DNA from: Candidatus Poribacteria bacterium
Lineage (GTDB): Bacteria; Poribacteria; WGA-4E; PCPOR2b
Assembly (NCBI GenBank): GCA_028819845.1
Contig: JAPPKS010000034.1
Location: 174,217-238,216 of the forward strand
Direction of reading: 5' to 3'
DNA length: 64,000 nt
Below are positions 419-5,769 of the stretch, in pieces. The translations under genes and the position numbers were made by a program. Each line of letters starts with the position of its first letter. The first letter of the stretch is position 1. The notes below the pieces were generated by a model, which did no database searches, was not told the origin of the DNA, and worked only from the letters and a program-made list of their open reading frames with translations.

Positions 419-1318
419 CTAATCGTCAATGAACGTTTTGATGCGATCTAGCAAAACACCAGCGTTTGCCTTAATTTCTTCGTTCTTAGAATCGCTCAAT
501 GTCTCAAGAAGTTCGATTGCCTGTTGATACTTTTTTTGAAGTGCATAGGTTAAGCTCAGGTGATACTTAGCCTGCTCATAAACTGTGCTTTGTGCGTACT
601 TTTCGATGACCGTTTGAAAGTGCGTCTCCGCCTTTCGATAAAAATCTTCCGCGTTGTCTTCATCAGCATGCGTTGCGTAATGTAATCCTAGGTTGAGGTG
701 GATATCCGGCAACAAACCGGTTTTGTTCATTGGATCTAGTTTAAGAACTTTATCGGCGATAGGTTTGCCATTCTCAATGTCCCCCCGCTTGACATAGATG
801 ATTGCAATTTCAGCATTAATCATCGGGGCATCTGGATTTTCTTTGATTTCAATTTTTAGTTGCTGAAACCGTTCTTCCTCCTTGAGAGTCCCCTCCATAA
901 GCACGGCAAATTCCTTTGCATCTCTGTAACCAACAATAACACTGATTGGATTCCCTTCAGTGTCAACGAATGCAATTGTTGGGACTGCGCCTGATCCATC
1001 TCCGTATGTCCTGTAAGCTTCAGCGTGCTCATCGCTTGACTCCGGATTTAACTTCAAGGTAACGAATTTTTTTGATAGTTCAACAACTTTTGAATCACTA
1101 AACGTAGTGGCATCCAGCCGCTTACAGGAACCTCACCATTCTGTGTAAAAGTCCATCATAATGGGTTTACCTGTTTCTTGGGCTTCCATCATTCCCTTCT
1201 CAATTGACTTCTCCCACTTAATCTCGGTTGATGCAAAGGCCAGCGGATAGGCAGCGGCAGTAAACATCAGGATAACCAACACCGATAGCTGATTCCGCTT
1301 CCAAGTACGATTGAACAT
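419..1318 (-). CDS. Exported thioredoxin-fold/TPR protein, probable selenoprotein (in-frame TGA at redox Cys, 299 residues)
   Basis: A strong site (AAAGGAG, 7 bases before ATG at 1318) starts a signal peptide (hydrophobic residues about 11-29, cut near AFA-ST). A thioredoxin-like domain follows: DFYTEW, then TGA at 1135-1133, then GSCKRLD. The TGA sits exactly where thioredoxin-fold proteins have the first Cys of WCxxC, giving W-U-G-S-C with Sec62 and Cys65. The frame then continues without interruption for 237 codons through the cis-Pro region (GAVPTIAFVD) and TPR-like helices (about residues 150-299). Both halves are in the same frame, so no frameshift is needed. Likely role: periplasmic thiol/selenol redox or disulfide chemistry. 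The alternative is a nonsense mutation; the exact position of the stop and a SECIS-like hairpin argue against that. No selenocysteine machinery (selA/selB/selD/selC) lies in the window. Confidence 0.75.
1103..1126 (-). promoter_or_regulatory. Candidate bacterial SECIS hairpin
   Basis: Directly after the in-frame UGA (1135-1133) the mRNA can fold as a lower stem UGUA/UACG, an internal loop AGC/AC, an upper stem GGC/GCC and an apical loop UGGAU. The loop begins 16 bases after the UGA and has G at its second position. That agrees with the general bacterial SECIS model: a short upper stem, a G within the first two loop bases, and about 16-37 bases from the UGA. The fold was done by eye and its energy was not computed. 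Confidence 0.5.
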
Positions 1319-1629: not shown

Positions 1630-1881
1630 TCAAGACTCATTCCCGTTTTTCTCAGTTTCCTCCCGTTCTGAATCACTTGGCATTTGCTCTGTAACCGCTT
1701 TGGCTTGAATCTGTTCAACCACCTGAATGCTTGTAGTCTTACTGCTCAAAGTTGTCCGACATCTTCCACAAGTCGTGACAATTTTTACTAATTTGGCATG
1801 TCTTCCCGCTTTATTTTGCTTTTGTTTCGTGTCCACGTACCGCTTGCAGCGAGGACACCACAACTGCTGCGGTCCCAACAT
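1630..1881 (-). CDS. Small zinc-ribbon protein, unknown function (83 residues)
   Basis: The product begins MLGPQQLWCPRC and has a second pair CGRC about 26 residues later, a CX2C...CX2C arrangement typical of a structural zinc ribbon. The middle is very basic (KQKQNKAGRHAK), which suits nucleic-acid or ribosome binding. The last 30 residues are acidic and polar and probably disordered. It starts 16 bases downstream of the end of mnmE on the same strand, so it is likely cotranscribed with the khpB-mnmE genes. I do not recognise a named family. A DNA-, RNA- or ribosome-associated role is only an inference from charge and neighbours. Confidence 0.6.
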   Translation of the reverse strand: MLGPQQLWCPRCKRYVDTKQKQNKAGRHAKLVKIVTTCGRCRTTLSSKTTSIQVVEQIQAKAVTEQMPSDSEREETEKNGNES

Positions 1882-1897
1882 TTATACACCCTCCGTG

Positions 1898-3283
1898 CTA
1901 TTTTCCGATGCAGAATTGCGAGAAAATGCGGTCTAGAATGTCTTCGGCTGTTATTTTGCCAACAATCTCACCAAGACAATCTAAACTAGTCCGCAAGTCT
2001 ACCGCGATTAGGTCATGTGACTGTGCTTGAAATAAGCTATCACGCGCCTGTTCAAGTGCAATTTTTGCTCGGCGCAATGCCTCGTAGTGACGAATATTTG
2101 TGACAATCACCCCTTCGCTAATTGTTTCTCGTCCCTTGAGAATTTCCTTTAGTACCGCCGTTTTCAAATCTTCAATACCGTCTCCATACAAAACGGACGT
2201 TTTAACTACCGAATTCTGGGGAGCATAAGTCTGAAGAGTTGCAATCGTCGTTACTACGGGCAAATCTACTTTGTTTAATATGAAAATTGCATTACTACGG
2301 TTGACAGCGTCTAACAATTGCCTGTCTGCTTCGGTTAGCGGTTGGGAAGCATCAAACATCACTAGAAGTAAATCTGCACCGTCTAAATAGGATTTGCTGC
2401 GCACTATGCCTTGGCGTTCAACAACATCTTCAGTCTGATGTATACCTGCGGTATCAATTAACTTAAGCGGAATGCCACGTAGGTTCAGCGGTTCTTCGAT
2501 TGTATCCCGAGTCGTGCCGGGGATTTCCGTGACAATCGCCCGTTCTTGTTGCAACAAAGCATTAAGTAAGCTTGATTTCCCAACATTTGGCTTGCCGAGA
2601 ATAGCGACACGGGCGCCTTCTCGCAAAATTTTACCGTCCGGCGCGGTCGCCATCAAGCGGTTTAACCCGTTGAGGATGGCTTCAGCGGATTTTCGCGCCG
2701 CCGCTAAATCAATGAAATCAAGGTCTTCATCCGGAAAGTCAATTGACGCTTCAACTTCTGCGAGCAGGTCTGCAAGCCGGTCACTGAGCGCGTTTACTTC
2801 TTGGGATAGCTTTCCGCTAAGCAGATCCATAGCAACGCGGAAATTGAGTTCTGTTTGAGATTGAATCAAATCAACAACTGCCTCTGCTTGGGCAAGATCC
2901 AATCTATCATTGAGAAAGGCGCGTTTGGTGAATTCTCCGGGTTCTGCAAGACGCGCTCCCGCACGCAGCGTCAATTCGAGGACTTGCTGTAATGGGATGA
3001 CGCCTCCGTGACAGTTAAACTCAACGACGTCCTCCGCCGTATAAGATTTGGGCGCCAACATAATTCCCAGCATGACTTCATCAATTACAGCATTTGAAAC
3101 GGGATTGACAACCCGCCCATAGTTGAGGGTATGGGTCGAAAATTGAGCTGGCGAGATATGTCGTGGTGACCGGAAAATCTTACAAGCGATAGGTACAGCA
3201 AGGGCACCACTAACCCTTACAATCCCGATGCCACCTTCGCCCCGAGGCGTTGCAATTGCAGCAATCGTATCAGATAGACTCAT
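1898..3283 (-). CDS. mnmE: tRNA uridine-5-carboxymethylaminomethyl modification GTPase MnmE
   Basis: MnmE works with MnmG (encoded at 41963-43855) to modify the wobble uridine (position 34) of certain tRNAs, using GTP hydrolysis. At 461 residues it is of normal length. The N-terminal folate-binding domain begins MSLSDTIAAIATPRGEGGIG. The Ras-like G domain, inserted in the helical domain, shows the P-loop GKPNVGKSS near residue 230, DTAG for G3 and NKVD for G4. The protein ends FCIGK, the conserved C-terminal motif whose Cys is needed for activity. It lies 9 bases downstream of khpB, in the yidC-jag-mnmE order common near replication origins. Confidence 0.97.
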   Translation of the reverse strand: MSLSDTIAAIATPRGEGGIGIVRVSGALAVPIACKIFRSPRHISPAQFSTHTLNYGRVVNPVSNAVIDEVMLGIMLAPKSYTAEDVVEFNCHGGVIPLQQVLELTLRAGARLAEPGEFTKRAFLNDRLDLAQAEAVVDLIQSQTELNFRVAMDLLSGKLSQEVNALSDRLADLLAEVEASIDFPDEDLDFIDLAAARKSAEAILNGLNRLMATAPDGKILREGARVAILGKPNVGKSSLLNALLQQERAIVTEIPGTTRDTIEEPLNLRGIPLKLIDTAGIHQTEDVVERQGIVRSKSYLDGADLLLVMFDASQPLTEADRQLLDAVNRSNAIFILNKVDLPVVTTIATLQTYAPQNSVVKTSVLYGDGIEDLKTAVLKEILKGRETISEGVIVTNIRHYEALRRAKIALEQARDSLFQAQSHDLIAVDLRTSLDCLGEIVGKITAEDILDRIFSQFCIGK

Positions 3284-3292
3284 AACCCCATG

Positions 3293-3925
3293 TCATGGGT
3301 CGTGGTTTTCGTGTGGCGTGACGACGACGCACCGCAGCATGCCCTCTCCACGGCTATAAGTCGCAACACCATTGTCCGACTGTAATGCGAGGTGTACAAT
3401 CCGACGGTCCTGAGGTGTCATCGGATTTAGGACAACCTCCAAGTTTGATTCCTTCACTTTGGCAGCTGTTCGATTAGCCAAATCAACAAGTAGAGTTTCA
3501 CGACGTTCACGGTACCCCTCTGTATCAACGAAAACTCTCTTCTTAACTAAGGATGACTTGTTCAAAATACAGTTGACCAAGTATTCAATTGCATTAAGTG
3601 TCTGTCCATGTCTACCAATTAACAAGCCAGGAGTATCAGCACTAACAATGAGATGAACGTTATCGTCAATGCTACGCGTTTCAATCTCGGCTTCGACTCC
3701 CATATGGGTCAACAGGTCATGCAGCACAGATTCCGGGGTTGGGGAAATATCTCCCTTTACGGTAGCGCGGATTTTGGCTAATTTCGTGCCTAATCCCAAG
3801 ATTCCCTTTGTGGCTTCATGGATAACTTTTACACTGACTTGTTCTCGGCTAACGTCGAGTTTTTCAAGTGCGTGTTCTAAAGCTTCTTCTGTAGTTTTGC
3901 CTTCCGTTTCAACATATTGTTGCAC
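3293..3925 (-). CDS. khpB: RNA-binding protein KhpB/Jag (SpoIIIJ-associated)
   Basis: A 210-residue RNA-binding protein with the usual three parts. A Jag N-terminal domain begins YVETEGKTTEEALEHAL with the EATKGILGLG motif. A KH domain carries the loop GLLIGRHGQTL. A C-terminal R3H domain contains RRIVHLALQ and GEGMLRCVVV. In other bacteria KhpB pairs with KhpA to bind many RNAs and affects cell elongation; khpA is also present here (31150-31389). It sits directly after yidC and before mnmE, the typical arrangement. An ATG at 3925 fits the domain start. Confidence 0.93.
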   Translation of the reverse strand: MQQYVETEGKTTEEALEHALEKLDVSREQVSVKVIHEATKGILGLGTKLAKIRATVKGDISPTPESVLHDLLTHMGVEAEIETRSIDDNVHLIVSADTPGLLIGRHGQTLNAIEYLVNCILNKSSLVKKRVFVDTEGYRERRETLLVDLANRTAAKVKESNLEVVLNPMTPQDRRIVHLALQSDNGVATYSRGEGMLRCVVVTPHENHDP

Positions 3926-3981
3926 GGTACCTTGTATTCCCGATACCCCAAAATGAGACCCAAAATTGATGGTAGATTTAA

Positions 3982-5769
3982 TTAAGATCTTCGATTTTGG
4001 AGTTGAGATCTCCTTTTTGTTAGCTTAGGTTGTTTTCCTGATGTTAAGGTTTTAACAGGCTCGGTCTCCTCTGATTTCCGGAATTGAGTTAAAAGGTGCC
4101 GTCCAATTTCAAAAACGTTACTACATGTCCAATAAAGAATTAACCCCGATGACCAATTGTAAAGAATAAACACAAAGATAAAGGGAATAAACTGCATAAT
4201 CTTTGCCTGAGTATTGTCTGCGATAGGCGTCACCCCTGCATTCATTTTTTGTTGTAACAAGGTTGTAGCACCGTAGATGATGGGCAAAAACCGAACTGCA
4301 TCAATCAAAAGCAGGGGAATCGTAAAGGGTAACGGGAACAAGGTATCAGGGCCAGACAAATCGTCCATCCATAAGCAGAAAGGGGCGGCACGAAGCTCAA
4401 CCGCGTTTCCAAAGACCGTGAATAACGCAAATAGGATAGGCAACTGCGGTATCCAAGGAATACAGCCGCCTAGTGGATTGACACCGTGTTCTTTGTATAG
4501 CCGCATTGTGGCACGATTTAACTTTTGCGGATCGTCTCTGTATTTCTCCTTTAATTCTGCAAGTAAGGGCTGGAGTTCCTGCATTTCCTTCATTGACTTA
4601 TAGCTTTTTCGGATTAGCGGGTAGGCAGCCAGTTTCGTAAATAAGGTCAATAGAATGATTGAAATTCCATAATTTCCAATTATACTATTGAGTCCACGAA
4701 GCAACCAGAGCATCGCCCAAGCAACTGGCCACAAAAAGCCAAGGTCAATAATCTTGTTCATTCTAAGCGGATCATCGGGTGCGTTGGGATGTGTCACCCT
4801 ATTCAGGATACTATCTTCCTTGGGTCCAACATAGACTCGAAATACATCGGTACGCCGTTCATTGACGGAAATACCGGAAATGACAAGGCTTGCCGCGTCT
4901 TTCCAGGCAGCAATCTCAGCCGATGGAATTTCTCCATTATCTATAAGTTCTTCACGTTCATACAAAGCATTGAGCGATGGATCTGGAATCATAAGCGCGG
5001 CAAAATACTTGCTATTCATCCCCGCCCATAGGACGGGGGCGTTTTTCTCTGAATCGCTAAAATCTTGTCTTGGCTTGCCGTGTCCTAAATATGCTACCGC
5101 CCCCTCATTTTTAGAAGCCCTCCTCCCTTTGCCGCTGTGCTTGCGCTCATGGAGAAGAAGGTCTGCATTAATCCCCGGTCCCCAATACAGTTTGTAATTC
5201 TCTAACGGTTGATTTGATATGTTTTCGAAAGTCAGCGCTACGTCCACAAAATAGCGATCATTATAAAAAGTAAATTCTTTGGATACCTTGAGTTTATCTC
5301 CAATCTGAGTTTTGAAGGTCAACCTGTCTCGAGACTGATCGGTGAGAATCACTTGTTGTTTGTCCGCCTTCCAGACAGCCGACATTGTGTCATTCTTCAA
5401 ATCAGGAATATCAACTCGGAGGCAACTTTGGGCACTTTTTGGAATCAAGTTGATTGATTCGTCGTTGGTAGATCGATCTGGATATTTTCTAAGTCTCCAT
5501 TCACCGACAATTGCGCGCTCGTCAATAAAGGAAATTTCATAGTTGTCGGTTTGCACAAGAGTTCTTGGACCTTCTTGAACCCTACTCAAATAAAGCGATG
5601 ACTCATCCCTTTGTGTTGGTGTTTCAATCGTTGATTCAGACGGGGAGGCCGGCAAATCCTCCCGCTGCCGGTCGGGGGTTTGCTCAGGCGGCGGTGGACT
5701 AAAGAAGATGGTCCAGCTAACCATTACAATAATCATGAGCGCAATCGCTAGGATGTAACGCCTCTCCAT
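3982..5769 (-). CDS. yidC: Membrane protein insertase YidC (Oxa1 family)
   Basis: YidC inserts and folds inner-membrane proteins, with SecYEG or alone. The 595-residue product has an N-terminal membrane anchor (MERRYILAIALMIIVMVSWTIFF). A large periplasmic domain of the Gram-negative type covers about residues 60-340. The conserved 60KD_IMP core follows, with transmembrane helices and the hydrophilic-groove segment around YGISIILLTLFTKLAAYPL. The C-terminus is basic (KLTKRRSQLQNRRS), as expected for ribosome contact. The periplasmic domain indicates a diderm cell. It lies between yidD/rnpA and khpB on the same strand. Confidence 0.97.
   Translation of the reverse strand: MERRYILAIALMIIVMVSWTIFFSPPPPEQTPDRQREDLPASPSESTIETPTQRDESSLYLSRVQEGPRTLVQTDNYEISFIDERAIVGEWRLRKYPDRSTNDESINLIPKSAQSCLRVDIPDLKNDTMSAVWKADKQQVILTDQSRDRLTFKTQIGDKLKVSKEFTFYNDRYFVDVALTFENISNQPLENYKLYWGPGINADLLLHERKHSGKGRRASKNEGAVAYLGHGKPRQDFSDSEKNAPVLWAGMNSKYFAALMIPDPSLNALYEREELIDNGEIPSAEIAAWKDAASLVISGISVNERRTDVFRVYVGPKEDSILNRVTHPNAPDDPLRMNKIIDLGFLWPVAWAMLWLLRGLNSIIGNYGISIILLTLFTKLAAYPLIRKSYKSMKEMQELQPLLAELKEKYRDDPQKLNRATMRLYKEHGVNPLGGCIPWIPQLPILFALFTVFGNAVELRAAPFCLWMDDLSGPDTLFPLPFTIPLLLIDAVRFLPIIYGATTLLQQKMNAGVTPIADNTQAKIMQFIPFIFVFILYNWSSGLILYWTCSNVFEIGRHLLTQFRKSEETEPVKTLTSGKQPKLTKRRSQLQNRRS

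Follow-up and report, generated by a model that had tools for sequence, protein, structure and literature searches.

An in-frame TGA at the redox centre of a Poribacterial thioredoxin-TPR protein almost certainly encodes selenocysteine

Results

A thioredoxin-TPR gene is interrupted by one TGA codon

The window, by which we mean the whole 64-kb stretch of Poribacterial DNA that was analysed, carries near one end a minus-strand gene that the first-pass annotation had described as two in-phase open frames separated by a single TGA. Direct translation of minus strand 1318-419 confirmed this arrangement, as positions 1318-1136 (61 codons from the ATG) and 1132-419 form a single frame that is broken only by a TGA at 1135-1133. 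When the TGA is translated as selenocysteine (Sec, U), the product is 299 residues long and has Sec as residue 62, in the context ...PIMMDFYTEW-U-GSCKRLDATTF.... The TGA occupies the first residue of a WCxxC motif (W-U-G-S-C), and the resolving residue of this motif, Cys65, is the sole cysteine in the protein. Five similar-sized frames in the window are split by an in-frame TGA, and a UxxC redox motif is found at the TGA in only one of them, the gene at 419-1318. The features of this locus are as follows.

419..1318, minus strand: predicted selenoprotein gene, with ATG at 1318 and terminal TAG at 421-419, translated with TGA as Sec; orthologues across the order
1229..1318 (end approximate), minus strand: putative signal peptide, residues 1-30, with a KR-rich start, a hydrophobic core and ...YPLAFA-S, as read from the sequence
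896..1228, minus strand: Thioredoxin_7 / DsbD-gamma-like domain, about residues 31-141, containing the UxxC motif and cis-Pro 113; based on Pfam, PDB sequence matches, AlphaFold2 and Foldseek
1133..1135, minus strand: in-frame TGA, predicted Sec residue 62, the first redox residue of WUGSC; based on the orthologue column
1106..1122, minus strand: predicted bacterial SECIS hairpin; based on frozen synonymous codons, covariation and a constraint that is lacking in Cys homologues
422..895, minus strand: TPR helical domain, about residues 142-299; based on Pfam TPR models and the AlphaFold2 helical repeat

Upstream, the minus strand contains yidC, a jag-like gene and mnmE, in that order (1898-5769). 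Of 39 named Poribacterial loci, 35 have mnmE upstream of the selenoprotein gene, a conserved arrangement that gives no functional pointer. Between mnmE and the selenoprotein gene lies a frame for an 83-aa zinc-ribbon-like protein with a CxxC...CxxC pattern (1630-1881, minus strand), a clear homologue of which (e.g. MLTQQQQWCPQCKRYVET) is found at the same place in few Poribacteria and was unseen in most.

The predicted protein combines a DsbD-gamma-like domain with TPR helices

To assign domains, we scored Pfam models across the TGA. Thioredoxin_7 (PF13899) matches residues 35-119 with 66.3 bits (cut-off 27), PF13098 scores 50.9 bits on the protein, and several TPR models match over residues 168-285. 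The closest solved sequences are C-terminal (gamma) domains of DsbD (E 7e-13), together with a Bacteroides disulphide-isomerase. The family profile, the UxxC motif and the cis-Pro together place the protein among the Thioredoxin_7 / DsbD-gamma-like oxidoreductases. With the cis-Pro P113 invariant among orthologues, these matches bear out the earlier proposal that the domain and its TPR tail continue undamaged past the TGA.

The AlphaFold2 model (mean pLDDT ~90; 90.2) contains a thioredoxin domain at about residues 31-141 followed by TPR-like helices. At the N-terminus, the model places a low-confidence helix (residues 2-23) and an unstructured segment (18-29), and the sequence of this region suggests a putative cleavable signal peptide. 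The best Foldseek match across the whole protein is E. coli YbbN/CnoX (PDB 3QOU; E 4.5e-07, 295 columns, 15% identity), with DsbD-gamma domains next. The low TM-score of the match to 3QOU (0.30) results from a different orientation of the thioredoxin and TPR domains.

The TGA is conserved across the order, and other phyla have cysteine in its place

A first homologue search covered 59 genomes of the order, the source genome included, and identified, in almost every one, an orthologue interrupted by a single in-frame TGA. In the first 30 orthologues that we fetched, the TGA was at the identical codon in all 30, within the motif DFYT-x-W/T-U-x-x-C. When the set was enlarged, all Poribacterial orthologues that were read had TGA in this column, and never Cys or another stop, and all 41 relatives read outside Poribacteria have TGC or TGT (Planctomycetota, Omnitrophota, Armatimonadota, Zixibacteria, Acidobacteriota, Ignavibacteriota and others). 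The first-pass annotation had pointed to random stops at this column as the outcome that would speak against Sec in place of the first redox Cys; the column instead contains TGA in Poribacteria or Cys in other phyla. Our scan of named genomes examined the best 80 of 424 relatives, with one of its two patterns requiring Cys, so Sec forms may occur in other phyla as well.

We then surveyed 85 genomes of the phylum, 73 of which belong to the order, and found the TGA form in 72 of these 73 and in one other class member, G070; where the orthologue itself was not fetched, this count reflects one TGA inside the match, for which the survey table gives no codon position. In one genome (G010), the Sec machinery is present and an orthologue was looked for and not found. 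Protein identity among the orthologues of the order is about 39-58%, and in an 18-sequence alignment U62, the resolving Cys65, the cis-Pro P113 and other key positions are invariant. The residue that precedes Sec varies (W, T, S, Y or R); at the same place, the Cys forms found in other phyla have W. A maximum-likelihood tree unites the 73 Sec rows of the order, with zero reversions to Cys, and places the distant Sec sequence of G070, with uncertainty, apart from them on a long branch.

Two matches (in G007 and G008) appeared to contain internal TAG codons. These proved to be natural terminal stops of frames that are open to their end, and the G008 match is split into two pieces because that copy contains an extra TPR repeat.

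Paralogues were also observed. Several genomes of genus g6 contain two Sec paralogues (L145/L160, L149/L162, L157/L163 and L154/L159) with longer open frames of ~380-440 aa, and most of the second copies have S, not W, before Sec. A lipoprotein-type paralogue (L207, G071:C50; LIAGCLLSSGC) carries a W-U-GFC motif and is apparently broken past the thioredoxin domain.

A small hairpin downstream of the TGA is under nucleotide-level constraint

The earlier reading had also placed a SECIS-like hairpin at 1060-1140. A hairpin at the right distance withstood analysis, although it is smaller than that region (core ~1122-1106) and its support comes from evolutionary signal, as the fold energy of 1060-1140 is no better than that of shuffled sequence (z = 0.18). 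The minimum free energy (MFE) of the 45 nt past the UGA is -7.9 kcal/mol here and -7.0 to -21.6 in relatives, an Rfam scan of 600-1600 returned no SECIS and no other credible family, and an RNAalifold consensus recovered just the 3-bp core. As thermodynamic folding and RNAalifold were little informative, we used codon constraint and covariation to evaluate the hairpin.

Across a set of 57 non-redundant sequences (<93% identical), there is hardly any synonymous variation in codons +5 to +9 after the TGA (Arg CGG 51/52, Leu CTG 57/57, Asp GAT 55/57, Glu GAA 37/37), and the Ala codon after the frozen Asp is GCC in 52 sequences and GCT in five. Neighbouring conserved codons mostly vary about as background usage predicts. 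The freeze is lacking in the Cys homologues of other phyla, where the same Leu CTG is found in 10/39 and the same Asp GAT in 19/40.

The constrained nucleotides would form the hairpin C-G-G-C / UGGAU / G-C-C-G, in which a GGC/GCC core stem pairs +16..+18 with +24..+26 and the UGGAU loop (1116-1112) begins 16 nt past the UGA. The pairs +16/+26, +17/+25 and +18/+24 are preserved in 57, 56 and 57 of the 57 sequences. Pairing is 97% in this register and falls to 75% or less when the partner is displaced by 1 to 4 bases. A compensatory change from G16-C26 to A16-U26 occurs in five sequences, in which CGG..GCC becomes CAG..GCT together; the exchange replaces Arg with Gln on one side of the stem and leaves the Ala codon silent on the other. 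These five sequences are related and the exchange may represent one event. In the copy from the source genome, a C-A mismatch occupies the place of the fourth pair, and the next two pairs are G-C and A-U.

A published model of bacterial SECIS elements specifies a spacing of 16-37 nt, a stem of 4-16 bp and G as the first two loop nucleotides (PMC13188914), and our comparison with it included an MFE of at most -7.5. The hairpin agrees with this model, marginally for the stem (a core of 3-4 bp plus outer pairs) and at the lower edge for the 16-nt spacing; the UGGAU loop, with G at its second and third positions, was counted as fitting (PMC13188914). On the evidence of codon constraint and covariation, we conclude that the frozen, covarying hairpin past the UGA is a SECIS element.

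The source genome encodes the machinery for Sec insertion

The first-pass annotation had noted that a genome lacking sel genes would argue against Sec. We found all four components, each above its curated cut-off, in the 4.6-Mb source genome of the window (97% complete). The named genomes closest to this one are without exception metagenome-assembled genomes of Candidatus Poribacteria, which places the window in that phylum. On contig C21, selA (594 bits) adjoins selB (374 bits) and tRNA-Sec (77.5 bits), the last of which ARAGORN reports as tRNA-SeC with anticodon tca, and selD (377 bits) is found on a separate contig, C10. This selD (L170, G000:C10:184300-186000) is itself of the Sec type, with a single TGA in CAG-U-ASKLDPG, so it constitutes a second, independent UGA-Sec gene in the source genome.

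Within the order, selA was undetected in nine members. In six of them (G003, G034, G043, G071, G076 and G083), selB and/or tRNA-Sec was detected. In the other three (G051, G072 and G081; 73-83% complete), selA, selB and tRNA-Sec were looked for and none was detected, which we attribute to incomplete bins.

The evidence for Sec at residue 62 lies at the level of sequence, where comparison establishes Sec decoding, the SECIS element, the domain architecture and fixation in the order, and we conclude that the apparent stop codon is almost certainly read as selenocysteine, which lies at the redox centre of the protein.

Discussion

A proposed function and its alternatives

We propose that this gene encodes an exported UxxC oxidoreductase that contains Sec, holds clients through its TPR domain and is recharged by DsbD, and assign this explanation as a whole a probability of about 0.9. 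Our confidence in the identity of the protein as a selenoprotein is high, and our confidence in the functional picture is moderate. By analogy with E. coli, SelB and Sec-tRNA(UCA) would decode the UGA at 1135-1133 as Sec, guided by the small SECIS hairpin whose UGGAU loop lies 16 nt downstream. The product would cross the inner membrane, where the selenol of U62 would attack and Cys65 resolve, as expected for a UxxC thiol/selenol-disulfide oxidoreductase that probably acts in disulfide reduction or isomerisation. The C-terminal TPR helices may hold client proteins, as in an exported counterpart of the chaperedoxin CnoX. The likeliest reductant would be the DsbD-type protein of the genome, a homologue of which is encoded on contig C26, apart from the selenoprotein gene.

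The alternative that survives best, and one we consider unlikely, accepts Sec and differs in the activity, making the protein an oxidase or a peroxide-scavenging enzyme and not a reductase or isomerase with a chaperone-like TPR domain. Several Sec-containing proteins of the thioredoxin fold do act on peroxides, and the TPR domain may merely tether the protein to one partner. The fold, however, is closest to DsbD-gamma and other thioredoxin-like domains of the reductive type, and the protein has a resolving Cys in a UxxC motif instead of the TxxU motif of peroxidases.

It is very improbable that the TGA is a functional terminator, which would yield a 61-aa exported peptide and a separately initiated 212-aa TPR protein. 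Both pieces are formally open reading frames, the second with a TTG start. Termination at this codon would nevertheless split the predicted thioredoxin fold between the strand at 53-57 and the helix at 63-72. The two halves show conservation as a single domain, and the Cys homologues in other phyla form one uninterrupted chain. In addition, the second piece would be without a signal peptide.

A general change of code, a sequencing error and a pseudogene can be excluded for practical purposes. In some candidate phyla TGA is a sense codon, which could suggest that this lineage reads it as Trp or Gly. Against such recoding, the genome contains selA, selB, selD and tRNA-Sec(UCA), TGA serves as a natural stop in other Poribacterial genes (for example past the mnmE C-terminus QFCVGK), the column contains Cys in other phyla and neither Trp nor Gly, and the downstream codons are constrained in the manner of a hairpin. 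A chance nonsense mutation in a decaying Cys-type thioredoxin-TPR gene would account for a frame interrupted by a single stop, and one or two paralogous fragments in the order do look damaged (L203, L207), but 72 genomes have an orthologue with the TGA, whose codon position was identical in every case read, despite identities down to 38-42%, with downstream residues invariant (cis-Pro and TPR positions included) and the SECIS codons frozen.

Implications of a Sec-containing thioredoxin-TPR protein

This is a very well supported selenoprotein gene, and one that ordinary gene-calling programs will break in two or cut short at the TGA. Its near-universal presence in the order, where Sec is never replaced by Cys, suggests a role for selenium in redox folding outside the cytoplasm of these bacteria. 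The order belongs to the sponge-associated phylum Poribacteria, many members of which are sponge symbionts. A sponge metagenome study reported that most symbiont bins contain selA and selB, and did not name client proteins there (PMC5649159); the thioredoxin-TPR selenoprotein would be one concrete client of this machinery. Among the papers that our literature search covered, none contained both 'Poribacteria' and 'selenoprotein'.

We also put forward, at somewhat short of even odds, the broader proposal that this is an exported selenocysteine chaperedoxin that founds a new selenoprotein family, is fixed in a Poribacterial order without reversion to Cys, and is a possible reason why these bacteria keep the Sec machinery. 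The fusion of a Sec-thioredoxin domain with TPR helices offers a testable case of an extracytoplasmic chaperedoxin.

Relationship to known systems

The CnoX/YbbN chaperedoxin (PDB 3QOU) has the same architecture of an N-terminal thioredoxin domain and C-terminal TPR helices. CnoX is cytoplasmic and contains SxxC or CxxC, and the E. coli protein has Cys63 for mixed disulfides (PMC8129009). In contrast, the Poribacterial protein has an apparent signal peptide, a UxxC motif, no other Cys and no significant sequence match to CnoX, with no YbbN among the phmmer matches listed at E <= 1e-3. It may work like CnoX, but on these grounds we do not file it as one. Cys-type relatives are in many cases homologous over both domains, as illustrated by Phycisphaerae L089 and Armatimonadota L096 (query residues 8-235 and 2-246 aligned), and differ in having TGC or TGT in place of the Sec codon and unconstrained SECIS codons.

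Among selenoproteins, none of the NCBIfam models reaches its cut-off on this protein (bits/cut-off: TsoB 69/805, trx7_PDZ 30/300, VPGUxxT 29/275). The Trx7/PDZ domain selenoprotein (NF041199) has a similar Thioredoxin_7-type domain (residues 33-90, 30 bits, far under the 300-bit cut-off) but contains CxxU and PDZ where this protein has UxxC and TPR. The TsoB rhodanese/DsbD fusion selenoprotein (NF045694) has a DsbD-gamma-like domain in common with it (69 bits over residues 8-142, against a cut-off of 805) but is a rhodanese/DsbD fusion with UxxxxU.

A 2026 review describes a thioredoxin-TPR fusion for none of its 119 selenoprotein families or subfamilies (PMC13188914), and this inventory and the NCBIfam comparison are consistent with the first-pass view that the protein is not a standard selenoprotein. 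UxxC selenoproteins of the thioredoxin fold are themselves a well-known kind (PMC1088965; PMC13188914), and Table 1 of the review lists a thiol:disulfide interchange selenoprotein (PF13098, UxxC) and a Sec-thioredoxin (PF00085, UxxC) (PMC13188914). Compared by description, these proteins resemble ours in fold and in having Sec first in CxxC, and differ in that neither is listed as a TPR fusion and the best Pfam model here is Thioredoxin_7. The Poribacterial protein may already have been counted under 'thiol:disulfide interchange protein, PF13098'. We file the thioredoxin-TPR selenoprotein as a new family of the well-known UxxC thioredoxin-fold kind.
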